NCBI GenBank assembly: GCA_937873495.1
Contig: CALMXZ010000010.1
Coordinates: forward strand, 186,001 to 250,000
Source of the DNA: an uncultured Trueperaceae bacterium
GTDB lineage: Bacteria > Deinococcota > Deinococci > Deinococcales > Trueperaceae
Length of the DNA: 64,000 nucleotides
Direction of reading: 5' to 3'
The notes under the pieces: model-generated
Databases searched by the model: none
Told to the model about the DNA's origin: nothing
Seen by the model: only the letters and a program-made list of their open reading frames with translations
Translations under genes and position numbers: made by a program
Shown here: one piece after another, positions 8,469 through 61,486 of the stretch
How the letters are laid out: every line of letters starts with the position of its first letter
Position numbering within the stretch: position 1 is the stretch's first letter

Positions 8469-8547
8469 GGTGGGTGGCGGGCCTCGCGCTAGCTGCTGGC
8501 CTGCGCTTCGCGCAGGAACGCACTACGCGCGAGGCCCGCCACCCACC
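8469..8547. repeat. long palindromic hairpin element A
   Basis: The arms at 8469-8489 and 8527-8547 are perfectly complementary over 21 bp. The 37-base loop contains a second hairpin, CCTGCGC-TTC-GCGCAGG. The outer flanks are CGTGGTCTGGTGG on the left and CCACCTCGAC on the right, shared with elements B, D and E. It lies in non-coding DNA after the pyrimidine operon. See also 8814-8896, 20092-20174, 23361-23447 and 23567-23650. Confidence 0.88.
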
Positions 8548-8813: not shown

Positions 8814-8896
8814 GGTGGGTGGCGAGTGGCTCGCGCGTAGTGCAGCCTGCGCGCAGCGCAGGGCTGGCACCTAGCGCGAGCCACTCGTCGCCCACC
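8814..8896. repeat. long palindromic hairpin element B (inverted relative to A)
   Basis: Arms 8814-8836 and 8874-8896 pair over 23 positions; the only two departures from complementarity are G-T pairs, which remain pairable as G-U in the + strand transcript. The loop is 37 bases, and its reverse complement is close to the loop of element A, including CCTGCGC...GCGCAGG. Flanks are in inverted order: TCGAGG on the left and CCAGACCACG on the right. Confidence 0.86.
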
Positions 8897-16751: not shown

Positions 16752-18707
16752 CTAGAGGCCTACGCTCCAGCTGAGCGCGATGTCGGCGTCGGCCGGCGAG
16801 ACGCGCACGTAGCCCTGCATCTCCTGGTGGAGGGCCGAGCAGAAGTCCGTGCAGTAGAAGGGGTAGACGCCTGGCTTGGTCGGCTTCCAGGTGACGGTCA
16901 GGGTCTGACCGGGCTTGATGAGGATGTTGGCGTCCTGCATGCCCTGCACGGCGAAGCCGTGCGGGACGTCCCAGTCCTGCTCGAGGTTGGTGACGTGCCA
17001 GTAGACGGTGTCGCCGACCTTGATGCCCTCGATGTTGTCAGGGGCGAAGTGCGAGCGGATGGAGCTCATGTACACGTGCACGTCGGTGCCGTCGCGCACG
17101 ACCTTGGTCTCGGCCTCGCTCTTGACGACGTACTCGTGCTCGTTGGCAGCCAGGTCGTAGATCAGCTTGCTGTTGGGCGCGACGAGGTCGGCGAGGATCG
17201 CCTGGGCGTAGTGCGGCTCACCGAGGGTCGGGAAGTCGAGCAGCATCTGCATGGTGTTGCCGCTGATGTCGATGAGCTGCGCGGACTGGGTGAGCTCCGG
17301 CCCGGTGGGCAGGTAGCGGTCCTTCGTGATCTTGTTGAGCGCGACGACGTACTTGTCCCATGGCTGCATGCTGTCGCCGCCAGGGATCATCAGGTGGCCG
17401 ATGGAGTAGTAGACGGGGATGCGGTCGCTGACCTCGAACTTCTTGGTGTCCCACTTGATGATCTCGGAGGTGATGAAGCAGCTCGTGTAGACGTTGCCCT
17501 TGCTGTCGAACTCGTTGTGCAGCGGCCCGAGGCAGGCGCGTTCGACCTGACCGGCGACGGTCGCGTCGAAGTCGAGGACGGGCACGCCGTAGGAGGTGCC
17601 ATCGAACTTCTGGTCGGCGATGGCCTGCATCATGTTGCTGTAGCCGTGGACGGCGATGGTGGCGGAGAGCTTGCCGCCCGTCACGATGAACTGACCGGTC
17701 GGGTCGACGTCGACGCCGTGCGGCGACTTGGGCGTCGGGAGGAAGTAGACGAGGCCTTCGCACTCTTCCGGCTGCAGGACGTTCACGGACTCGTGCCACG
17801 TCGTCTCGGCCGTATGGGTGGCCTCGTTCATGAGGTTGTGCGCGTAGTACGCGGGGAGCTGGCCGACCTTGCCCTCGGCGACGCACTGCTCGGCGCGGCG
17901 CCAGTTGACGGCCGCGACGAAGTCCTTGTCGTTCTGCGAGGCGTTGACCTCGAGCAGCGTGTGCGCCTGCTCGCTGTTGTAGGAGGTGAAGAAGCACCAG
18001 TCGGCGGACGGACCCTTGCCGCAGTGCGCGAGGTCGTAGTCGAAGCCGGGCATCATGATCTGGAAGGCGACGGCCATCTCGCCCGACGCCTTGTCGACCG
18101 ACACGAACGTCAGCATGCCCTTGAAGTTGTCCTTGTACTCGGAGATGGGCATGTCGCGCTGCGGGACGGGGACGCTGAAGCGCGTGCCCGCGACGACGTA
18201 CTCGCTGTTCATCGTCGTGAAGGGCGAGGGGTGGTTGCCCGCGACGTTGGGGATCTCGATGATCTCGACGGTCTCGAAGGTCGAGAGGTCGATGCGCGCG
18301 ATCCTCGGCGTGTTGTTGCCGTTGATGAAGATCCAGCGGCCGTCAGGCACACCGTTCGTCATGGAGAGCTCGGGGTGGTGGGAGTCGTCCCAGTAGACGG
18401 GCCCGTGCGAGGTGTTGAAGAGGGCCTTCGTCTCCTCCGAGTACCCGTAGCCGTTCTCGCCGTACTGCGAGAAGACGGGGATGTTCTTGATGGTGCGGCC
18501 GGACGGCAAGCCAACGACGCTCAGCTGGCCGTTGAAGCCGCCCGAGAAGAAGCCGTAGAACTCGTCGTGCTCGCCGGGCGGCACGAACGTACGGTTGGCG
18601 GCGTCGTTGGCCATGCGGGCCTGGTTACGCGCGCCTTGGGCGAGCACCAGGCCGGCGGCCAGCACCGCGAAGCCCAGCAAGACTAGGAACAGCTTCCGTT
18701 GCTTCAT
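16752..18707 (-). CDS. nosZ: nitrous oxide reductase, Sec-dependent (clade II type)
   Basis: A 651-residue exported copper enzyme that reduces N2O to N2. The N terminus (KLFLVLLGFAVLAAGLVLAQG) is a plain Sec signal without a twin-arginine motif, the mark of clade II. The seven-bladed propeller with the CuZ histidines covers residues ~60-540, including DDSHHPELSMTNG. The C-terminal cupredoxin domain has the CuA ligand cluster YPFYCTDFCSALHQEMQGY near residue 614. AAGGAGTG precedes the ATG by 6 bases. It follows a cytochrome c gene with a 46-base gap and precedes the assembly genes. Confidence 0.97.
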   Translation of the reverse strand: MKQRKLFLVLLGFAVLAAGLVLAQGARNQARMANDAANRTFVPPGEHDEFYGFFSGGFNGQLSVVGLPSGRTIKNIPVFSQYGENGYGYSEETKALFNTSHGPVYWDDSHHPELSMTNGVPDGRWIFINGNNTPRIARIDLSTFETVEIIEIPNVAGNHPSPFTTMNSEYVVAGTRFSVPVPQRDMPISEYKDNFKGMLTFVSVDKASGEMAVAFQIMMPGFDYDLAHCGKGPSADWCFFTSYNSEQAHTLLEVNASQNDKDFVAAVNWRRAEQCVAEGKVGQLPAYYAHNLMNEATHTAETTWHESVNVLQPEECEGLVYFLPTPKSPHGVDVDPTGQFIVTGGKLSATIAVHGYSNMMQAIADQKFDGTSYGVPVLDFDATVAGQVERACLGPLHNEFDSKGNVYTSCFITSEIIKWDTKKFEVSDRIPVYYSIGHLMIPGGDSMQPWDKYVVALNKITKDRYLPTGPELTQSAQLIDISGNTMQMLLDFPTLGEPHYAQAILADLVAPNSKLIYDLAANEHEYVVKSEAETKVVRDGTDVHVYMSSIRSHFAPDNIEGIKVGDTVYWHVTNLEQDWDVPHGFAVQGMQDANILIKPGQTLTVTWKPTKPGVYPFYCTDFCSALHQEMQGYVRVSPADADIALSWSVGL

Positions 18708-20065: not shown

Positions 20066-20091
20066 GCGGGCGCTAGCGCCTCGCTTGGAGG

Positions 20092-20174
20092 GGGTGGGCT
20101 GGGGGAGCGTGCCCTGCGTACCTGCCTACGCTTTCGCTATGGCAGTACTTCGGGCACACTCCCCCAGCCCACCC
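20092..20174. repeat. long palindromic hairpin element C
   Basis: Arms 20092-20114 and 20152-20174 are complementary over 23 bp with one mismatch (C-A on this strand, G-T on the other). The 37-base loop is, read on the minus strand, nearly identical to the loop of element D (35 of 37). The outer CGTGGTCTGG and CTCGAC flanks of A, B, D and E are missing here. It lies 26 bases after the metallopeptidase stop and could also act as a terminator. Confidence 0.85.
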
Positions 20175-20304
20175 GTCCGGGGTCACGCCGTTCGTCGCCT
20201 CTTGCTTCGAGGTCGGGACCCGTGCGTCATGCTGCCCGGCTACGTGCCCGCTTCACACCATCCACGTACCATAAGTTGTATCCTTCCCCTCACGTCCTAC
20301 CGAG

Positions 20305-20460
20305 CGTAGTACGTGACCGCGTAACCCTCTCACGCTCGAGAGGGCGCCCCAGACGGGGCGGCGGGGGAAGCTGGTGCGAGTCCAGCGCTGTCCCGCAACG
20401 GTAACGCGCCTCCAGGAGTCATCCGAGGCGCGGAGTCCGGATACCCGCTGCACGGTCCAT
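20305..20460 (+). ncRNA. cobalamin riboswitch aptamer
   Basis: The core GGGGGAAGCTGGTGCGAG, then TCCAGCGCTGTCCCGCAACG and GTAACGC, matches the conserved B12-box region (GGGAA..GGTG.GA.TCC..GCTG.CCCGC.AC.GT.A). The 3' conserved part GGAGTCCGGATACCCGC follows after a variable GCGCCTCC...GGAGGCGC-like stem region. Upstream stems CCCTCT...AGAGGG and CGCCCC...GGGGCG fit the 5' half. The exact 5' limit is estimated. It stands directly before the ribonucleotide reductase genes and should switch them off when adenosylcobalamin is abundant. Confidence 0.9.
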
Positions 20461-20500
20461 TTCCCTTGGCCCTCGACGGAAGGGCGGAGAGTGGTGCAGC
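20447..20500 (+). promoter_or_regulatory. possible expression platform pairing the aptamer end with the nrdA start
   Basis: GCTGCAC at 20447-20453, at the very 3' end of the aptamer, is exactly complementary to GTGCAGC at 20494-20500, which abuts the GTG start codon. Forming this stem would enclose the GGAGAG ribosome site, so the aptamer and the start region may compete. This is read from base pairing only. Confidence 0.45.
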
Positions 20501-22276
20501 GTGTTCCAGCCTCCCGATAAGGTCATCGATACCCCCAACACGGTGCTCCTGCCGCGGCGTGCGCCGCGTGGCGGTCGCGACGCAACGCAAGCCGGCTTCC
20601 GCATGCCGCGCCCCGCCCGACCGGCGCGCGAGCCGTTCGCCTGGCTGAACGACGAGAGCCGGGCCTTCCTCGCGAGCGGCTACCTGCTCCCCGGCACGAC
20701 GCCGGAAGCGCGGTTGCGCCAGATCGCGGAGCGCGCCGAGCAGCTCCTGCCCGGCATGCATGGCTTCGCCGAGAAGTTCCTCGACTACATGGGCCGCGGC
20801 TGGTACTCGCTCGCCTCGCCCGTGTGGGCCAACTTCGGCCTGAACCGCGGCCTGCCCATCTCCTGCTTCGGGAGCTACGTGCCGGACAGCATGGACGGCA
20901 TCCTGAGCGCGGCGGCCGAGGTCGGGATGATGAGCAAGTACGGCGGCGGCACGAGCGCCTACTTCGGCGACCTCCGCGGCCGCGGCAGCCCCATCCGCGA
21001 CAACGGCCAGTCCGAGGGGGCGGTCAACTTCATGCGCCTCTTCGACACCCTCATCGACGTGACCAAGCAGGGCGCCACGCGCCGCGGCTCGTTCGCCGCC
21101 TACCTCCCCATCGAGCACCCCGACGCGCGCGAGTTCCTCGAGATCCGCGGCGACGGCAACCCCATCCAGAACCTGTTCTTCTCCGTGACCGTGGGCGACG
21201 GGTGGTTGAACGCCATGATCGCGGGCGACCGCGACAAGCGCGAGCTGTGGGCGCGCGTGCTGCAGCAGCGCTCGGAGGTCGGGCTGCCGTACGTGCTCTT
21301 CACCGGCAACGCCGACCGCGGCGCCGCCGACGTCTACCGCGACCGCGGCATGCCCATCCGCTCCAGCAACCTCTGCAGCGAGATCAGCCTGCCGGTGAGC
21401 GAAGACGAGTCGTTCGTCTGCTGCCTCTCGAGCATGAACCTGCTCCACTTCGACGAATGGGCAGGCACCGACGCCGTCGAGACCCTCGTCTACTTCCTCG
21501 ACGCCGTCATGAGCGACTTCATCGAGAAGTCAGAAGGCGTGCCGTACCTCGGCAGGGCGCGACGCTTCGCCGCGCGTCACAGGGCGCTCGGCCTCGGGGT
21601 GCTCGGCTGGCACAGCTACTTACAGTCGCGCCTCGTGTCGCTCGGCAGCCTCGTGGCCGCCGGACTGAACCGGCGCGTGTTCAAGAACGTCCGCGAGGCG
21701 GCCGACGTGGCGTCGGCCGAGCTGGCCCGCCGCTACGGTGAGCCCGAGCTGCTCGAAGGCTACGGGCGGCGCAACACCACCCTCATGGCTATCGCCCCGA
21801 CCACGTCCAGCTCCTTCATCCTCGGGCAGGTCTCGCAGTCGATCGAACCGCTCAAGTCGAACTACTACGTGCGCGACCTCGCCAAGGCTGTAACCACCTT
21901 CCGCAACCCGGCGCTCGCCGAGCTGCTGGCGGAAGCCGACCGCGACACGCCAGAAGTCTGGCGCAGCATCCTCGAGCACGACGGCAGCGTTCAGCACCTC
22001 GACTTCCTCTCGAACGAGGAGAAGAGCGTGTTCGCCACGTTCTCCGAGGTCAGTCAGCTCGACCTCGTCGTGCAAGCGGGGCAGCGGCAGGAGTTCATCG
22101 ACCAGGGGCAGTCGCTCAACCTGATGGTGCACCCGGCTACGCCGACCAAGGACCTGAACGCCTTGCACCTCGAGGCGTGGCAGCGCGGCCTCAAGAGCCT
22201 GTACTACCAGCACAGCATGAACGCGGCGCAGGAGTTCAACCGCGAGCTGCTGACCTGCTCCGTGTGCGAAGCCTGA
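20501..22276 (+). CDS. nrdA: class I ribonucleoside-diphosphate reductase, alpha subunit
   Basis: A 591-residue catalytic subunit that makes deoxyribonucleotides. Active-site residues are in place: C122 in ISCFG, N290/C292/E294 in SNLCSEI, C307-C308 in FVCCLSSMNL, the radical-transfer tyrosines in LKSLYYQHSMN, and the C-terminal shuttle cysteines in TCSVCEA. It lacks an N-terminal ATP-cone, so it is a short form without that allosteric site. The GTG start abuts the riboswitch platform. Because nrdB follows directly, this is class I and not the B12-dependent NrdJ. Confidence 0.93.
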   Translation: MFQPPDKVIDTPNTVLLPRRAPRGGRDATQAGFRMPRPARPAREPFAWLNDESRAFLASGYLLPGTTPEARLRQIAERAEQLLPGMHGFAEKFLDYMGRGWYSLASPVWANFGLNRGLPISCFGSYVPDSMDGILSAAAEVGMMSKYGGGTSAYFGDLRGRGSPIRDNGQSEGAVNFMRLFDTLIDVTKQGATRRGSFAAYLPIEHPDAREFLEIRGDGNPIQNLFFSVTVGDGWLNAMIAGDRDKRELWARVLQQRSEVGLPYVLFTGNADRGAADVYRDRGMPIRSSNLCSEISLPVSEDESFVCCLSSMNLLHFDEWAGTDAVETLVYFLDAVMSDFIEKSEGVPYLGRARRFAARHRALGLGVLGWHSYLQSRLVSLGSLVAAGLNRRVFKNVREAADVASAELARRYGEPELLEGYGRRNTTLMAIAPTTSSSFILGQVSQSIEPLKSNYYVRDLAKAVTTFRNPALAELLAEADRDTPEVWRSILEHDGSVQHLDFLSNEEKSVFATFSEVSQLDLVVQAGQRQEFIDQGQSLNLMVHPATPTKDLNALHLEAWQRGLKSLYYQHSMNAAQEFNRELLTCSVCEA

Positions 22277-23307
22277 TGGCCGGCGACCAGGCGTCCGTCG
22301 AAGCCGCGCCCGCTGTCGCGACCCGCCGCCTGACGACGCCGCGCCTCAACCTCCGCCCCGCCGAGTACCCGGAGCTCCTCGCCTACCGCGACGCCATCCG
22401 GCACTCGTACTGGCTCCACACGGAGTACAACCTCACTGACGACGTGCACGACTTCCGCGCGCGCGTCAGCGACGCCGAGCGCAGCGCCATCAAGAACGCC
22501 ATGCTGGCCATCGCGCAGGTCGAGGTCGCCGTCAAGACGTTCTGGGGCGACCTCTACAAGCGCTACCCCAAGCCCGAGGTGGGCGCCGTCGGGTACACGT
22601 TCGCGGAGAGCGAGGTGCGCCACCAGGACGCCTACGCGCACCTGCTCGAGGTCCTGGGGCTCAACCAGGAGTTCGAGCGCATCCGCGAGATCCCGGCAAT
22701 CTACCAGCGGGTGCTGTTCCTCAACGAGCACCTGGGCCCGCGGCCCGCGGCCAGGACGGCGACGGACCGCGAGGACGCCCTCACCCTCCTGCTGTTCAGT
22801 GCGTTCGTTGAGCACGTCAGCCTCTTCGGGCAGTTCCTGATCATGAAGAGCTTCAACCGCCGGCGGAACCTCTTCAAGGGGATCGCGAACATCGTCGAGG
22901 CCACGAGCAAGGAGGAGCAGATCCACGGCCTCTTCGGCTACCAGGTCGTGCGGACGCTCCGCGAGGAGAACCCCGGCTGGTTCGACGCCGCGTTCTCGGA
23001 GCGCGTGCGCTCCGCCTGTCTGGCGGCGCGCGAGGCCGAGCGCGGCATCCTCGACTGGATCTTCGAGGCGGGCGAGCTCGACTTCCTCCCGCGCGCCGTG
23101 GTCGACGCGTACATCGAGCAGCGTTTCGACGACGCCCTCGCCGCCATCGACATGCCGCCCCTGTTCGAGCCGGACGAGGCGCTGGTGGCCGAGACGCGTT
23201 GGTTCGACGAGGAGGTCGTGGCGGGCAAGCATTACGACTTCTTCCACAAGCGGCCGACGACCTACACGAAGAAGGCCAAGTCGATCACCAGCGACGACCT
23301 CTTCTAG
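22276..23307 (+). CDS. nrdB: class I ribonucleoside-diphosphate reductase, beta subunit
   Basis: A 343-residue ferritin-like subunit that generates the radical for NrdA. The E-x-x-H-x-x-x-Y pattern of the radical site is present as EVRHQDAY, giving E113, H116 and a candidate tyrosyl radical at Y120. Further metal ligands are expected in FVEHVSLFGQF near residue 179 and KEEQIHGLFGYQ near 216. The ATG shares its A with the nrdA stop. A palindrome pair follows the gene. Confidence 0.93.
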   Translation: MAGDQASVEAAPAVATRRLTTPRLNLRPAEYPELLAYRDAIRHSYWLHTEYNLTDDVHDFRARVSDAERSAIKNAMLAIAQVEVAVKTFWGDLYKRYPKPEVGAVGYTFAESEVRHQDAYAHLLEVLGLNQEFERIREIPAIYQRVLFLNEHLGPRPAARTATDREDALTLLLFSAFVEHVSLFGQFLIMKSFNRRRNLFKGIANIVEATSKEEQIHGLFGYQVVRTLREENPGWFDAAFSERVRSACLAAREAERGILDWIFEAGELDFLPRAVVDAYIEQRFDDALAAIDMPPLFEPDEALVAETRWFDEEVVAGKHYDFFHKRPTTYTKKAKSITSDDLF

Positions 23308-23360: not shown

Positions 23361-23447
23361 GGTGGGTGGGCTGGGGAGCGCGCCCGAAGTACTGCCGTAG
23401 CGAAAGCGCAGGCAGGTACGCAGGGCGCGCTCCCCAGCCCACCCACC
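23361..23447. repeat. long palindromic hairpin element D
   Basis: Arms 23361-23385 and 23423-23447 are perfectly complementary over 25 bp. The 37-base loop starts GAAGTACTGCC, contains GCGAAAGC (a GNRA-type tetraloop on a GC stem) and ends GGCAGGTACGCA, so GTAC-TGCC and GGCA-GTAC extend the hairpin. Outer flanks are CGTGGTCTGG and CTCGACC. It lies 53 bases after nrdB. Confidence 0.9.
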
Positions 23448-23566: not shown

Positions 23567-23650
23567 GGTGGACGGTTCGGCGGCGTTCCCGAAGTACTGC
23601 CGTAGCGCAGCGCAGGCAGGTACGCAGGGAACGCCGCCGAACCGTCCACC
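23567..23650. repeat. long palindromic hairpin element E
   Basis: Arms 23567-23590 and 23627-23650 are perfectly complementary over 24 bp but differ strongly from those of D, only 120 bases away. The 36-base loop matches that of D except that GCGAAAGC is GCGCAGC. The loop has the same orientation as in D, whereas the outer flanks are inverted (TCGAGG left, CCAGACCACG right). The right flank continues to about 23686 and contains the stop codon of livF. Confidence 0.9.
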
Positions 23651-51368: not shown

Positions 51369-53144
51369 TCATTGCCGCAACGCCGCCGCCCGCTCCGCCA
51401 ACCAGCCCCGCACGTCCTCCGGCAGGTGTGGGCTGAGCGTCTCCACCACCCGGCGGTGGTACGCGTCGAGCCACTCCACCTCATGGCTCGTCAGCAGGTC
51501 GACGTCGACGAGGTCCCGGTCGAACGGGCACAGGGTGAGCGTGTCGAAGCGGAGGAACTCGCCGAAGACGCCCGTGCCCGCCGGCGCAACGGCGATCACG
51601 TTCTCGAGGCGCACGCCGAACACGCCCTCGAAGTAGACGCCCGGCTCGTTGGAGTTGACGTGACCGACCTCGAACACGACGTCGTTCGTCTTGTTGATCC
51701 GCTGCGGTCCCTCGTGCACGTGCAGGTAGCTGCCCACGCCGTGGCCGATGCCGTGGCGGCACTCCCAGTCGTTCGCCCAGATGTGGAAGCGGCCTAGGGC
51801 GTCCAGCTTCTGGCCCGTGGTGCCCTTGGGGAAGCGCGCGGAGCTGAGCATGATGAGGCTCTTGAGGACCGTGGTGTAGGTGCGCTTGTGCTCCGCGGTC
51901 GGCGTGCCGAGGGCGACGGTGCGCGTTGTGTCGGTGGTGCCGGTCAGGAACTGGGCGCCGCAGTCGATCAGGAGGAGCGACTCCGGTGCCAGCGGCTGCG
52001 GGTTCTCGCGGTTCAGCTTGTAGTGACCGACGGACGAGTTGGGTCCGAAGCCGACGATGGTGTCGAAGCTGGCGCCCCGGCAGTCCGGCAGGCCCTCGCG
52101 GAAGTACTGGAGCTTCTCGGAGACGGAGAGCTCCGTCTCAGCGGTCAGGTCGGTGGTGCTCAACCAGTGCAGGAGCCGCGTGACCGCCACGCCGTCGTAA
52201 GTGTGGGCGAGCAGGGCGCAGCGCAGCTCCGTCTCGTTCTTCCTGGCCTTCAGTGCGTCGAGCGGACTGGCGCCCTCGACGCGCCGCAGGTGGTCGGTGG
52301 CCTCGTACAGGAGCACGTTCGTCTTGGCCGGGTCCAGCAGCAGCGCCGTGTCGGCGGGCAGCTCGTGGAGGCTCGCCGCGACCGCGGCGTATGGGCGGAT
52401 GCCGACCTCGTCCGGCAAGGCCGCGCGCAGCCCGGGGGAGACCTGCTCCTCGTGCACGAAGAGCTGTACGCCGTCCGGCCCGACGATGCAGTAGGCCAAC
52501 GCCACCGGGTTCATCGGCACGTCGTTGCCGCGCAGGTTGAGGAGCCACGCGACCTCGTCCAAGGCCGTGACCAGCATGCTCGCCGCGCCGGCTTCCGTCA
52601 GGCGGGCCCGCAGGCGGCCCAACTTGTCGGCTGCCGCTTCGCCCGCGAACTCGAGCGGATGGTCGACGATCGGCGTGGGCACGTCGGCCGGCCTGTCGAG
52701 CCATACCTCGTCGATGAGGCCGAGGCACGGTCTCACCGTGATGCGAGCAGGCGCCAGGCGCCGTTCCAACTCGTGTAGCGCCTCCGCGCTCACGGACTCG
52801 GGATCGATGCCGACGACGCTGCCGGCGGGGAGCGTCTCGCTCAGCCAAGTGGTGAGTTCCGGGGTCTCGGGCTTGCCTTCCTTGAAGACCGTGATGGCCG
52901 TGCCCGCCGTCTCCGTGTCTGCCCGCATGTGGTAGCGCGGGTCGACCCAGAGCCCGGCCTGGTCGGCGGTGACGACGAATCGCCCCGCGGAGCCGTTGAA
53001 GCCGCTCAGCCAGGCGCGCGTGCGCCAGCGCTCGGAGAGGTACTCGCTCAGATGGGCGTCGCCGGTCGTGGCCAGCCAGGCGTCCACTCCGTTGGCTTGC
53101 ATGCGCTTCCTCAAGCGGTCGATCCTAGCCGTTGCGTTCGGCAT
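51369..53144 (-). CDS. aminopeptidase P family protein (Xaa-Pro aminopeptidase, M24B), copy 1
   Basis: A 591-residue peptidase of the long, three-domain type: two creatinase-like N domains (residues ~1-310) and a pita-bread catalytic domain. The metal ligands are visible in LLIDCGAQFLTGTTDTTRT (two Asp), HGIGHGVGSYLHVHEGP (His) and NEPGVYFEGVFGVRLEN (Glu), with the second Glu near the C terminus. It removes N-terminal residues before proline. I chose ATG 53144 because GGAG lies 5 bases upstream and the length then equals that of its paralogue at 58013-59788. Confidence 0.93.
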   Translation of the reverse strand: MPNATARIDRLRKRMQANGVDAWLATTGDAHLSEYLSERWRTRAWLSGFNGSAGRFVVTADQAGLWVDPRYHMRADTETAGTAITVFKEGKPETPELTTWLSETLPAGSVVGIDPESVSAEALHELERRLAPARITVRPCLGLIDEVWLDRPADVPTPIVDHPLEFAGEAAADKLGRLRARLTEAGAASMLVTALDEVAWLLNLRGNDVPMNPVALAYCIVGPDGVQLFVHEEQVSPGLRAALPDEVGIRPYAAVAASLHELPADTALLLDPAKTNVLLYEATDHLRRVEGASPLDALKARKNETELRCALLAHTYDGVAVTRLLHWLSTTDLTAETELSVSEKLQYFREGLPDCRGASFDTIVGFGPNSSVGHYKLNRENPQPLAPESLLLIDCGAQFLTGTTDTTRTVALGTPTAEHKRTYTTVLKSLIMLSSARFPKGTTGQKLDALGRFHIWANDWECRHGIGHGVGSYLHVHEGPQRINKTNDVVFEVGHVNSNEPGVYFEGVFGVRLENVIAVAPAGTGVFGEFLRFDTLTLCPFDRDLVDVDLLTSHEVEWLDAYHRRVVETLSPHLPEDVRGWLAERAAALRQ

Positions 53145-53203
53145 GGTGGCTCCAATCATGGCCTCTGCGGCGACGGGCTGAGCGCCCGTCACCCCTTCAG
53201 CTC

Positions 53204-53231
53204 TTTCTCATACTGTTGACAATCTAGCATG
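53204..53231. promoter_or_regulatory. 28-bp element shared with 59781-59808, divergent promoter 1
   Basis: All 28 bases are identical to the second copy. On the plus strand it contains TTGACA (53216-53221), and TACGCT follows 18 bases later at 53240-53245. On the minus strand TAGATT acts as a -10 box 9 bases before ATG 53211, which here opens only a four-codon frame (MRKS stop). The element controls the aminopeptidase gene and the divergent binding-protein gene. Confidence 0.65.
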
Positions 53232-53339
53232 CTCAAGGCTACGCTTCGACCATTCAGTTCTCGTGAGCGGGGTCCGGCCATGCCTGCGCAAGTTCGCTCA
53301 GCAGCCTCCGCCGCAAGGTTCGAAGGGAGAAGCGCAACG

Positions 53340-54905
53340 GTGAAAAGAGTTCTGTTGTCCCTCTTGGTAGCGTTTGGGCTGCTCGGCAGCGCACTCGCGC
53401 AACAGCCCGGCTCGACTCTCGTGGTCGGCATGGCCATCCTGCCGAACACGATCGATTCAGGCGACGCGAACGACTCCAACGCCATCGCCGTTACCCGCCA
53501 GATCGTCGAGCGCCTCGTCGAGTTGGCGCCGGGTAACGAGGGTCTCGTCCCGGGCCTGGCCACCAGCTGGGAAGCGAACGCCGACTCCACGGAGTGGACG
53601 TTCCACCTGCGCGAGGGCGTCAAGTTCCACGACGGCACGCCGTTCGACGCCCAGGCCGTGAAGTTCAGCCTCGACCGCTGGAACGATCCGGCCAACCCGT
53701 ACCACTTCGGGGCCGAGGGCAAGGCCTACGTCGGCTGGCGCAACCTGTTCGGCGGCTTCCTCGGCGACGGCTCGGCCGTGAGCGAGGTCGTCGTGGACGA
53801 CGAGTACACGGTGACGCTCAAGCTCACGCGCTCCATCTCGTTCGTTCCGTCGCTGCTGGCCGGCGGCTACTTCGGCTTCGATAGCCCCACGGCCGTCATG
53901 GCGGCAGGCGCCAACTACGGCACGCCGTCCGTCGGCTCCGTCGGCACGGGCCCGTACCGCTTCGAGCGCTGGGAAGAGGGCAGCCGCGTGGTGCTCAAGG
54001 CCAACCCCGAGTACCGCGACGGCCCGCCGCCCACCGAGACGGTCGTCTTCGTCGGCGTGAGCGACCCGACGGCGCGCCTGGCGCAGCTCAAGGCCGGCGC
54101 CCTCGACATCGCGGCGGCCATCTCGCCGTCCGACCTGGACAGCGTGCTGAGCGACCCGAACCTCGAACTGGTCCGCGGCGAGGGCGGCTTGAACACGAGC
54201 TACCTGGCCATGCACCAGAACCAGAAGCCGATGGACGACGTGCGCGTTCGTCAGGCCGTCGCCTACGCCATCGACCGGGTCGCCATCGTCGACGCGTTCT
54301 ACGCGGGTCAGGCCGTCGCGGCCGAGGACATCATCCCCGACTCGCTGTGGGGCCACGCCGACGCGGGGGCCTACCCGTACGACCCGGCCAAGGCGAGCGA
54401 ATTGCTTGCCGAGGCGGGTTACCCGAACGGGTTTGATACTGAATTGTGGTACCGGAACTCCGGCCTCGAGCCCGTGATCGCGGAGGCCATCGCCTCCTAC
54501 CTGGCCGACGTCGGCATCCGCGCCGCCCTCAAGACCGAAGACTGGGCCGCGTTCCTCGCGGACTACATGGCGGGCAACTTCCCGCTCTACACGCTCGGCT
54601 GGAACGCCGACTTCGCGGACCCCGACACGTTCATCTACACCTTCTACGGCCCGCAGGCCGTGCGGCGCTTCGGCTGGAACGCTCCCGAGGTCGTCACCCT
54701 CACCCAGGAGGCCAGGCAGGTCCCCGGCCAGGCCGAGCGCGCCGCGCTCTACGCGCAGGTCGTCACCGCGGCCCACGACGCCATGCCGATGCTCCCCCTC
54801 GCGCACCAGTCGCAGTTCTTCGTCGTGCGCAAGGGCGTGACCGGCCTCGTCCTCAACCCGCTCGGCGCCTTCCCGGTGCTCACGGGCACGAGCAAGGCCC
54901 AGTAA
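53340..54905 (+). CDS. family 5 (peptide/opine-type) ABC substrate-binding protein, copy 1
   Basis: A 521-residue exported binding protein. The signal peptide is VKRVLLSLLVAFGLLGSALAQ, cleaved near residue 21. The family-5 pattern LREGVKFHDGTPFDAQAVKFS is near residue 95 and YPNGFDTELWYRNSG near 365. It has no lipobox. The chosen GTG has GGGAGA 9 bases upstream, and the mature part matches the paralogue at 59915 from the first strand on. It is followed by a hairpin and the permease genes. Confidence 0.93.
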   Translation: MKRVLLSLLVAFGLLGSALAQQPGSTLVVGMAILPNTIDSGDANDSNAIAVTRQIVERLVELAPGNEGLVPGLATSWEANADSTEWTFHLREGVKFHDGTPFDAQAVKFSLDRWNDPANPYHFGAEGKAYVGWRNLFGGFLGDGSAVSEVVVDDEYTVTLKLTRSISFVPSLLAGGYFGFDSPTAVMAAGANYGTPSVGSVGTGPYRFERWEEGSRVVLKANPEYRDGPPPTETVVFVGVSDPTARLAQLKAGALDIAAAISPSDLDSVLSDPNLELVRGEGGLNTSYLAMHQNQKPMDDVRVRQAVAYAIDRVAIVDAFYAGQAVAAEDIIPDSLWGHADAGAYPYDPAKASELLAEAGYPNGFDTELWYRNSGLEPVIAEAIASYLADVGIRAALKTEDWAAFLADYMAGNFPLYTLGWNADFADPDTFIYTFYGPQAVRRFGWNAPEVVTLTQEARQVPGQAERAALYAQVVTAAHDAMPMLPLAHQSQFFVVRKGVTGLVLNPLGAFPVLTGTSKAQ

Positions 54906-58012: not shown

Positions 58013-59788
58013 TCACAACGGCGCCGTGAGCCGCCGCAGCCACTCGCGTTCCCGGTTGGTCAGGTGCTGGCTGAGCGCCCGCTCGACGCGCGCGTGGTAC
58101 TCGTTCAGCCACTCCTTCTCGTCGCCGGTGAGCATGCCGGTGTCGATGACGGTCGGGTCGAACGGGCACAGCGTTAGCGTCTGGAAGCGGTAGAACTCGC
58201 CGAACGCGGTCACCTCGTCGGGGCTCGTCACGATGACGTTCTCCAGCCGCACGCCGAAGCGCCCCTCGAAGTAGACCGCCGGCTCGCAGGAGTTCACCAT
58301 GCCGGGCCCGAAGGGCTCCTCGTTGCGCGGGTGGATGCGCTGCGGCCCCTCGTGCACGTGCAGGTAGCTGCCCACCCCGTGGCCTATCCCGTGCGGGCAG
58401 TCGAGCCCGGCGCGCCACAACTGCGCCCGTGCCAGCGCGTTGAGCTGCCTGCCGACGGTGCCCTTCGGGAACCGCGCCGAGCTGAGCGCGATCACGCTCT
58501 TGAGGACGAGCGTGTAGACCCGGCGCTGCTCGGCCGTCGGTGCGCCGATGGCGACGGTGCGCGTCGTGTCGGTCGTGCCGTAGGGGAAGTGGCTGCCGCA
58601 GTCGATGAGGAGCAGTCCGCCCGTGCCGAGAGGCTGCCGGTCCTCGGGGTCGGTGCGGTAATGACCTTCCGAGGAGTGCGGTCCGTAAGCCGCGATGGTC
58701 TGGAAGCTCGGTCCGCGGTACCCGGGTAGCCCCGCCCGGAACTCCTCGAGCTTGCGCGCCACGCTCGCCTCCGTTTCGGCTGCCGCGTCGCACTCGCTCA
58801 GCCAGTGCAGGAGCCTGGTGAGGGCTACGCCGTCCTGCAGGTGGGCGGCGGCGGCTCCGGCCAGCTCGGTGGGGTTCTTGACCGCCTTCAGGTGGGCAAC
58901 GGGGCTCGCGTGCGGCACGAGCCGGACGCGCCCGGCGACTTGCCCCAGGGCGATGCTCGTCCTGGCGGGGTCGAGGAGCAGCGCCGTGCCGGCCGGGAGA
59001 CCGGCGAGCCCCTCGGCTACCACTCCGTAGTCGCACACCTCGACCTCCTCGGGCAGCGCGGCCCTGAGCGCGTCGTCGACGCGGTCAAGGCGAACGTACA
59101 GCCGGACCGAGCCCATGTCGACCAGGCAGAACGCCAGGGCCACCGGGTTGAGCGGGACGTCGTTGCCGCGGATGTTGAGCAACCACGCGACCTCGTCGAG
59201 CGCCGTGAGGAGGACGGCGTTCGCGCCGGCCTCCGCTACGCGAGCCCGCAGCCGCGCGAGCTTGCTCTCAGCCGGCTCCCCCGCGTACTCGAGTGGGTGG
59301 ACGACGATCGGCGAGAACGTCTCTGCCGGCCGGTCGAGCCAGACTTCGTCGATGAGGCCGTGCACGGGGCGCAGGTCGAGCCCGACCGGGGAGAGGCGGG
59401 CCTGGTACTCGGCGAACGCGTCGATGCTCAGCGTCTCGGGATCGAAGCCGACGACGGTGCCCTTGGTCAGGGTCTCCGCGAGCCAGGCGAGCAGGTCCGG
59501 GGTTCCCGGCTTGCCCTCCTTGAACACCGCGATCGGGGCGTCCCTGGTCTCCTCGTCCGCGCGCTGGTGGTAGCGGGGATCCACCCAGAGGCCGGCGAAG
59601 TCGGGCGTGACGACGAGCCTGCCCGCCGAGCCGCGGAAGCCGCTCAGCCACGCCCTGGTCTGCCACCGCTCGCCGAGGTACTCGCTCAGGTGCGCGTCTC
59701 CCGTGGTCGCCACCCACGCGTGGATGCCGCGCTTCGCCATGGCGGCGCGCAGGCGGCCTAGCCGGTCGCTGACCTCGGTGTTTCTCAT
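58013..59788 (-). CDS. aminopeptidase P family protein (Xaa-Pro aminopeptidase, M24B), copy 2
   Basis: A 591-residue paralogue of the protein at 51369-53144, with the same three domains and ligands (LLIDCGSHFPYGTTDTTRT, HGIGHGVGSYLHVHEGP, CEPAVYFEGRFGVRLEN). The start ATG lies inside the shared 28-bp promoter element and TAGATT stands 9 bases before it, with no Shine-Dalgarno site, so the mRNA is probably leaderless. It is divergent from a second binding-protein gene, as copy 1 is. Confidence 0.94.
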   Translation of the reverse strand: MRNTEVSDRLGRLRAAMAKRGIHAWVATTGDAHLSEYLGERWQTRAWLSGFRGSAGRLVVTPDFAGLWVDPRYHQRADEETRDAPIAVFKEGKPGTPDLLAWLAETLTKGTVVGFDPETLSIDAFAEYQARLSPVGLDLRPVHGLIDEVWLDRPAETFSPIVVHPLEYAGEPAESKLARLRARVAEAGANAVLLTALDEVAWLLNIRGNDVPLNPVALAFCLVDMGSVRLYVRLDRVDDALRAALPEEVEVCDYGVVAEGLAGLPAGTALLLDPARTSIALGQVAGRVRLVPHASPVAHLKAVKNPTELAGAAAAHLQDGVALTRLLHWLSECDAAAETEASVARKLEEFRAGLPGYRGPSFQTIAAYGPHSSEGHYRTDPEDRQPLGTGGLLLIDCGSHFPYGTTDTTRTVAIGAPTAEQRRVYTLVLKSVIALSSARFPKGTVGRQLNALARAQLWRAGLDCPHGIGHGVGSYLHVHEGPQRIHPRNEEPFGPGMVNSCEPAVYFEGRFGVRLENVIVTSPDEVTAFGEFYRFQTLTLCPFDPTVIDTGMLTGDEKEWLNEYHARVERALSQHLTNREREWLRRLTAPL

Positions 59789-59808
59789 ACTGTTGACAAT
59801 CTAGCATG
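59781..59808. promoter_or_regulatory. 28-bp element shared with 53204-53231, divergent promoter 2
   Basis: Identical to the first copy over 28 bases, including TTGACAATCTAGCATG. Plus strand: TTGACA at 59793-59798 and TACCCT 18 bases later at 59817-59822. Minus strand: TAGATT at 59798-59803, 9 bases before ATG 59788. The pseudo-dyad TGTTGACA inside it could be bound by the nearby GntR regulator. Confidence 0.65.
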
Positions 59809-59914
59809 GCCGCTGCTACCCTCACTCTGGAAAGCCATCCAACTGACCAGCCACGGTGCCGCCACGTCCACCCCGGACGGGCAGAAGCTCACCGAGCGGC
59901 GCGTTAGGAGCGCA

Positions 59915-61486
59915 ATGAACATCGCCAAGAAGCTCATCGCAACGTTGTTGGTGCTCGTGCTGGCCGGCTTGGGGCTGGCGCAGCAGTCGGGGCCGGCCAT
60001 CATCATCGGCACGGGCAACCTGCCGACGACGCTCGACTCGGGCGACGCGAACGACGGCAACTCGATCGCCGTCACCAGCCAGATCGTCGAGAAGCTCATA
60101 ACGCACGCGCCAGGGACGACGACCCTCATGCCCGCGTTGGCCAAGAGCTGGACCGGCAACGATGACTCGACCGTGTGGGTCTTCGAACTCGAACAGGGCG
60201 TGCGCTTCCACGACGGCACACCGTTCAACGCCGAGGCCGTCAAGTTCAGCCTCGACCGCTGGAACGACCCCGAGAACCCGTACCGCTTCTCCGCGTCCGG
60301 CAAGGCCTACCCCGGTTGGGGCGCCCTCTTCGGCGGCTTCCTCGGCAGCGGCAGCGCGCTCGAGAAGGTTACGGTGCTGGACGACTACACCGTTCAGCTC
60401 GAGCTGAACCGCTCCGTGTCGTTCCTCCCGGCCATCCTGGCCTCCGGCTACTTCGGGTTCGACAGCCCCACGGCCGTCATGGCCGCCGGCGCCGATTACG
60501 GCACGCCGAGGGTCGGTTCCGTCGGCACGGGGCCGTTCGTGTTCGGCCTCTGGGAAGAGGGCACCCGCATCGTCCTGAACGCCAACCCCGACTACCGCCA
60601 AGGCCCACCGGCGGCGGCGCAGCTCGTCTTCGTCGGCGTCGGCGACGCCACCGCGCGCATCGCCCAGCTCAAGGCGGGTGCGCTCGACGTCGTGTACGGG
60701 CTCTCGCAAGGCGACCTGCCGTCCTTGGAGAGCGACCCGAACATCGAGATCGTTCGCAGCAGCACGGGCGGCCTGAACACGAGCATGCTCTCGATGCACC
60801 AGAGCCAGCCGCCGTTCGACGACGTGCGCGTGAGGCAGGCCGTCTCCTACGCCATCGACAGGCAGGCCCTCGTCGACGCGTTCGACAACGGCGAGGTACC
60901 GGCCGCAAAGGACATCCTGCCGCCCAACCTCTGGGGCCACGCCGGCGTCGAGCCGTACTCCTACGATCCCGACAAGGCGCGGGCCCTGCTGGCCGAGGCC
61001 GGCTACCCGAACGGATTCGACACGGAGCTGTGGTACCGCGAGACGGCCAGGTTCCGGTTGGGCATGGTCGAGGCGATGGCGTCCTACCTCGCCGAGGTCG
61101 GCATCCGCGCTTCGCTCAAGACGGAGGACGCGGCGGCGTTCCTGCAAGACCAACTGACCGGCAAGTTCCCCCTCTACACCGCGGGCTGGAACGCCGATTT
61201 CGCCGACCCCGACACGTTCATCTACACCTTCTACGGCCCCACCGCCATGCAGCGCTTCGGTTGGGATGCCCCGGCCATCGTCGCCCTCACGGAGGAGGCC
61301 CGCAAGGCGCCGACCCAGGCGGAGCGCGCCGTGCTGTACGCGGAGGTCATGGCCGTCGCCCACGAGGCCGCGCCGTCACTCCCCCTCGCGCACGGCACCC
61401 CGTTCATGGCGATCCGGAAGGGCGTCAAGGGCGTCGTCATCAACCCGCTCGGCGGCCTGCCCTCGATGGCGGGGGTAAGCAAGTAA
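59915..61486 (+). CDS. family 5 (peptide/opine-type) ABC substrate-binding protein, copy 2
   Basis: A 523-residue paralogue of the binding protein at 53340, with a signal peptide (residues ~1-24, ending GLGLAQ) and the same landmarks: LEQGVRFHDGTPFNAEAVKFS, YPNGFDTELWYRETA and GWNADFADPDTFIYTFYGP. TAGGAG precedes the ATG. No permease genes follow it, so it probably shares the DppB/C pair at 55025-56898. Confidence 0.94.
   Translation: MNIAKKLIATLLVLVLAGLGLAQQSGPAIIIGTGNLPTTLDSGDANDGNSIAVTSQIVEKLITHAPGTTTLMPALAKSWTGNDDSTVWVFELEQGVRFHDGTPFNAEAVKFSLDRWNDPENPYRFSASGKAYPGWGALFGGFLGSGSALEKVTVLDDYTVQLELNRSVSFLPAILASGYFGFDSPTAVMAAGADYGTPRVGSVGTGPFVFGLWEEGTRIVLNANPDYRQGPPAAAQLVFVGVGDATARIAQLKAGALDVVYGLSQGDLPSLESDPNIEIVRSSTGGLNTSMLSMHQSQPPFDDVRVRQAVSYAIDRQALVDAFDNGEVPAAKDILPPNLWGHAGVEPYSYDPDKARALLAEAGYPNGFDTELWYRETARFRLGMVEAMASYLAEVGIRASLKTEDAAAFLQDQLTGKFPLYTAGWNADFADPDTFIYTFYGPTAMQRFGWDAPAIVALTEEARKAPTQAERAVLYAEVMAVAHEAAPSLPLAHGTPFMAIRKGVKGVVINPLGGLPSMAGVSK

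Follow-up and report, generated by a model that had tools for sequence, protein, structure and literature searches.

The nrdAB operon and its leader

Two genes of a ribonucleotide reductase lie next to each other on the forward strand of the window, by which we mean the whole 64-kb stretch of Trueperaceae DNA that was analysed. The first one, nrdA (20501..22276), encodes a class Id-type catalytic subunit of 591 amino acids and scored 807.6 bits against TIGR02510, the cut-off of which is 602 bits. The second one, nrdB (22276..23307), encodes a class Id-type radical-generating subunit of 343 amino acids and matched PF00268 with an E-value of 1.2e-52. Translation of nrdB probably starts from the ATG at 22276, in overlap with the stop codon of nrdA (TGATG); the GTG at 22177, given as the start in the mechanically made list of open reading frames, was set aside for it. 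The Pfam scan of NrdA returned the all-alpha and barrel domains only and no ATP-cone, and NrdB has no ATP-cone either. NrdA is 74-94% identical to its named Truepera and Trueperaceae neighbours in the sequence collection, which places the host in this family of the Deinococcota.

Directly upstream of nrdA lies the single Rfam match of the window, a cobalamin riboswitch aptamer (RF00174) at 20328..20466 on the same strand, with 53.2 bits (E 2e-10) against a curated gathering score of 31.5 bits. The first-pass annotation had claimed a B12 aptamer immediately before nrdA and nrdB and a reductase of the B12-independent class I; the former is confirmed by this match, and the latter is supported as well. 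The fold of 20310-20506 is 3.5 standard deviations more stable than its dinucleotide shuffles, and none of the 200 shuffles reached it.

The P1 helix of the window is paired poorly in the Rfam alignment because P1 and P2 are separated by an extra, inserted hairpin (CCCTCT...AGAGGG, 20325..20344, forward strand), which was recognized in the sequence, in the loci L018 and L019 and in the predicted fold. Comparison of relatives gave a slightly different position from that of the Rfam alignment, with the 5' strand at 20315..20323 of the forward strand and its partner at 20449-20457, outside the inserted hairpin; from the alignment P1 had seemed to be absent. This helix is weak in the window, with one C-A mismatch. 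A search of the flanks located it in the corresponding position in each of the nine family leaders, over 8 to 11 positions and with at most one mismatch; there is none in L019, L022 and L026, the last of which has a perfect helix of 10 bp. When compared with 300 shuffles, P1 beat at least 282 of them in four of the six distinct leaders, and the helices of the window itself and of L020 were not significant against these shuffled controls. The nine leaders align well in the core (GGGGAAG...GGTG...GTCCCGCAACGGTAACGC...GNAGYCCG..ACC), which is nearly invariant, the B12 box is conserved, and the helices vary with pairing kept: as judged by eye, P5 changes from GCTGG/CCAGC to GCCGG/CCGGC across the family, and P3 and P6 also change in this manner.

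The aptamer is followed by a P13-like hairpin (GCCCT-CGACGGA-AGGGC, 20469..20485, forward strand), the likely expression platform. It is conserved in the Trueperaceae, in Thermus and in an armatimonadete (L093), and L026 carries a compensatory change in it (GCCTC/GAGGC). The probable ribosome-binding site, GGAGAG (20486..20491, forward strand), stands directly 3' of this hairpin, at a distance of 9 nt from the start codon, a placement found in the other Trueperaceae as well. Since a transcription terminator was looked for in the nrdAB leader and none was found, and since the ribosome-binding site directly follows P13, the most likely mode of the predicted switch would be translational. In cobalamin riboswitches an L5-L13 kissing loop links the aptamer and the platform (PMC9600662); such a loop would be expected here, but a simple covariation test gave it no support, since native loops (2.56) had no advantage in pairing over swapped loops (2.46).

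Further upstream, two NrdR-like boxes were recognized on the forward strand, TACCATAAGTTGTA at 20267..20280 and, exactly 31 bp after it, TACCGAGCGTAGTA at 20298..20311, which together outscore every other tandem 31-bp pair of the window. The same spacing recurs in relatives and upstream of nrdJ, and NrdR itself is encoded in the host genome; the tandem boxes may well be bound by NrdR. The sites of nrdJ are the better evidence for these boxes, because the nrdA sites were already known when the pattern was drawn up: seven of the eight regions upstream of nrdJ attain that box score, and the 0.88 million positions as a whole contain roughly 100 hits, a part of which are these very sites. In the window's genus (L047-L049) a second tandem NrdR-like pair, with a perfect palindrome in it (TACAACATGTTGTA), is located about 400 bases upstream of nrdJ.

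Some other features of the window were recorded. REP-like intergenic inverted repeats with arms of about 30 nt occur at 8469-8547, 8814-8896, 20088-20174, 23361-23447 and 23567-23650; one of them closely precedes the nrdAB leader, and another closely follows nrdB. A Sec-dependent (clade II) nitrous-oxide reductase, NosZ, is encoded on the reverse strand at 16752-18707 (TIGR04246, 902.6 bits). The regions 51593-54782 and 58231-61369, about 6.6 kb apart, are 69-78% identical over long blocks and are probably duplicated operons.

NrdJ and corrinoid supply in the genome and its relatives

A B12-dependent reductase elsewhere in the genome, predicted earlier from the window, does exist: the assembly (3.44 Mb in 17 contigs, 96.7% complete) contains an uninterrupted NrdJ of 931 amino acids on contig C11, with 520.5 bits against TIGR02504 (cut-off 400). 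The class III proteins NrdD and NrdG are encoded just upstream of a metE riboswitch, hence all three reductase classes are present, and there is only one R2 gene. The genome has three cobalamin riboswitches, in front of nrdAB, of metE and of a BtuFCD-type ABC importer, and two further sites encode B12-binding domains. CbiC is needed in both corrin-ring pathways. A check for genes of B12 synthesis and uptake revealed the BtuFCD-type importer and a PduO-type adenosyltransferase; the CobA/BtuR adenosyltransferase was not found in the host genome, nor was CbiC, a single marker searched in an assembly about 97% complete. Due to the presence of the importer and the lack of CbiC the corrinoid is probably imported, and the organism is probably an importer rather than a maker of corrinoids.

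Among the 61 related genomes searched, class Id nrdA was found in ten of the same family, that of the window included. A cobalamin riboswitch precedes it in nine of these ten operons, counting L026, where the score falls just below the gathering score (31.2 bits, E 4e-4). The tenth genome, G028 (L024 and L074 denote one and the same record), keeps the operon and the tandem NrdR-like boxes and has no aptamer; the search of this 95% complete genome with NrdJ queries matched only NrdA itself. Elsewhere in the family, G035 has a fragment of NrdJ at the end of a contig, and in G017 NrdJ is interrupted by long insertions. Reading frames of NrdJ interrupted in frame, of 1385-2491 codons, were noticed in G001 (L069 and L053) and also in G005, G009 and G017; the insert in the nrdJ of G001 begins with Cys and ends with HN before Thr, in an intein-like manner.

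Outside the family, a scan of 80 named class Id loci against RNA families revealed a cobalamin riboswitch before the class Id operon in six genomes of Thermus (RF00174, once RF01482), in two Rhodothermota (RF01689), in one armatimonadete (RF00174) and in one Atopococcus MAG of the Bacillota (RF01482). The gene order is riboswitch, hotdog thioesterase, nrdB and nrdA in Thermus, and riboswitch, a glutaredoxin-ATP-cone-NrdB fusion and nrdA in Atopococcus. Thermus operons had at one point been taken to be devoid of the riboswitch, wrongly, as loci extending 1.5 kb upstream of nrdA missed the riboswitch lying before the thioesterase gene and nrdB.

NrdJ is encoded in all 19 genomes that have a riboswitch on the class Id operon, when the fragment of G035 and the interrupted gene of G017 are counted. 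By hand count, the genomes in which no riboswitch was detected comprise 13 with NrdJ, haloarchaea and two Thermus species among them, and 18 with no candidate other than NrdA. The association gives a Fisher p of 1e-5, which should be taken as an indication only, the genomes being related, not phylogenetically independent, and several of them with a class II-like score below the cut-off having been left out.

Direction of the switch and class of the reductase

Taken together, the nrdAB operon is very probably that of a class Id (dimanganese) reductase which is switched off by cobalamin through its leader, serves as a B12-free backup to NrdJ and shares an NrdR layer with it. According to this model, imported corrinoid, when available, would be bound by the leader RNA and the aptamer would close; in the closed state the P13 hairpin beside the ribosome-binding site would limit the translation of nrdA, and nrdB would be limited too, through its start codon overlapping the nrdA stop. 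Deoxyribonucleotides would then be made by the B12-dependent, class II NrdJ. When corrinoid is scarce, NrdAB would be made as a B12-free backup for aerobic growth, and NrdR might add a transcriptional layer common to nrdAB and nrdJ.

The proposed OFF direction is drawn from the biology of the system: the enzyme is B12-independent, it has a counterpart in NrdJ, and one relative lacks both the riboswitch and NrdJ. This joint loss fits an OFF switch because repression by B12 would be harmful without NrdJ. The comparison of relatives supports repression by B12. On its own, the predicted ligand-free fold of the window would point the other way: the sequence GUGCAG, immediately ahead of the start codon, is paired there with the 3' strand of P1 (CUGCAC); formation of P1 upon corrinoid binding would then free the start codon and turn nrdAB on. 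This pairing was seen in the window's genus only, and it is not obvious what a cell with NrdJ would gain from inducing a B12-independent enzyme by B12. Such an ON switch would also leave unexplained why the riboswitch is missing from the genome without nrdJ, and the riboswitch-controlled B12-independent reductases described so far are read as repressed (PMC3848588, PMC545781). We consider the ON direction highly improbable.

The class of the enzyme under the OFF switch was assessed from both subunits. The best solved relatives of NrdA are the chains 6dqx (E 1e-234) and 6dqw, and those of NrdB are LbNrdB (6sf4, 5olk), 8dq3 and FjNrdB (6cwo), all with E-values of 1e-86 or better; the next R2 group follows these class Id matches only from 1.9e-20 (9dws) and then 2e-11. 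The residues of interest in NrdB are Glu83, Lys87, Trp90, Glu113, His116, Tyr120, Glu179, Thr210, Glu214 and His217. In the literature, class Id is recognized by Glu in place of Asp as the first metal ligand, by a Trp and, in a subgroup, by a Lys three residues before this Trp (PMC6754362), as well as by a Tyr/Glu pairing and a Thr partner that keeps the Tyr away from the metals (PMC8463856). When aligned to LbNrdB, the subunit has Glu83 as its first ligand, Lys87 at +4 and Trp90 at +7, and the second-sphere Tyr120 is accompanied by its Thr210 partner. The reductase is class Id by this signature and by the best structural matches of both subunits, from which a superoxide-activated Mn2(IV,III) cofactor of NrdB would be expected.

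That a tyrosyl-radical motif had been read in NrdB earlier is understandable, as a tyrosine is indeed present at the radical position (Tyr120), and this is the point in favour of a canonical class Ia reductase with a diferric-tyrosyl radical under the same riboswitch. The tyrosine stood and the tyrosyl-radical type did not: Tyr120 sits in a class Id context, where the Tyr is not known to carry a radical, that of the Flavobacterium johnsoniae enzyme not being oxidised to a stable radical (PMC8463856). The Asp that class Ia has as first metal ligand is replaced by Glu83, and Lys87, Trp90 and Thr210 are all present (PMC6754362, PMC8463856); among PDB entries class Id proteins match best, and iron-type R2s trail them by many orders of magnitude. 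These residues and matches led to the rejection of the canonical tyrosyl-radical reading, and a class Ia enzyme is highly improbable here.

Least probable of all is that the aptamer has decayed, has lost its binding of corrinoid and leaves the regulation to NrdR alone. The imperfect P1 might speak for this, as might the score of about 53 bits, well under the 128.8 bits that the metE riboswitch of this genome reaches; against it, the low score comes mainly from the short P6 accessory region and the inserted hairpin, and the core has stayed nearly invariant over the family while the helices vary with pairing kept.

Related systems and class Id operons of other lineages

Control of a B12-free reductase by a B12 switch is already known for class Ia and class III enzymes. 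In Streptomyces coelicolor the class I nrdABS operon, studied by Borovok and colleagues, reportedly carries a B12 riboswitch, with NrdJ as the alternative enzyme; that reductase is said to be class Ia, whereas the Trueperaceae one is class Id. Propionibacterium (Cutibacterium) acnes has cobalamin riboswitches on the nrdAB and nrdDG leaders and NrdR boxes on nrdAB and nrdRJ, which was read as B12 lowering nrdAB so that NrdJ dominates (PMC3848588). The arrangement described here is similar in its cobalamin riboswitch before a B12-independent reductase operon, in the nrdJ of the genome and in its NrdR boxes; it belongs to another phylum, and RNA-seq of P. acnes suggests early termination of nrdAB (PMC3848588), in contrast to our leader, where no terminator was found. 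In delta-proteobacteria B12-elements precede nrdDG in genomes with NrdJ, and the general rule is described as well (PMC545781); the likeness extends to a B12 riboswitch before a B12-independent reductase with NrdJ in the genome, and the difference is that the target there is the anaerobic class III enzyme (PMC545781). With the class Id reductases of F. johnsoniae, Leeuwenhoekiella blandensis and Facklamia ignava our enzyme shares the NrdA/NrdB signature and the best structural matches, and it differs from the latter two in that their NrdB has an ATP-cone; the excerpts describing these three species make no mention of riboswitch control (PMC6754362, PMC8463856). No report of a class Id reductase, or of Truepera, together with a cobalamin riboswitch was found in the open-licence literature, which is not proof of novelty; class Id as a riboswitch target appears to be unreported.

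The known rule that the vitamin switches off the vitamin-free isozyme would hereby be extended to a reductase subclass of poorly understood role. Surviving B12 shortage offers a testable reason why many bacteria have a manganese-based class Id enzyme beside NrdJ; the relative lacking both riboswitch and nrdJ is a natural control for this, and the culturable Thermus strains, which share the arrangement, make it accessible to experiments. A wider proposal, which in our judgement could equally hold or fail, is that class Id has repeatedly become the B12-shortage backup of the cobalt-based NrdJ, RF00174, RF01482 and RF01689 having been recruited, across at least four phyla, to operons that differ in gene order, and that this reflects a general exchange of cobalt for manganese in DNA-precursor synthesis.

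The gene between the riboswitch and nrdB in Thermus encodes a hotdog-type acyl-CoA thioesterase (L097:1062-1496; also in L105, L107, L108, L112 and L124), and a similar thioesterase-like gene stands between the riboswitch and nrdA in L026. In the Thermus loci L097, L105, L107, L108 and L112 the P13 hairpin is followed by a possible conserved frame of five codons with its own ribosome-binding site, which reads ATG CCT GTG GGA CCY stop in four of the five.
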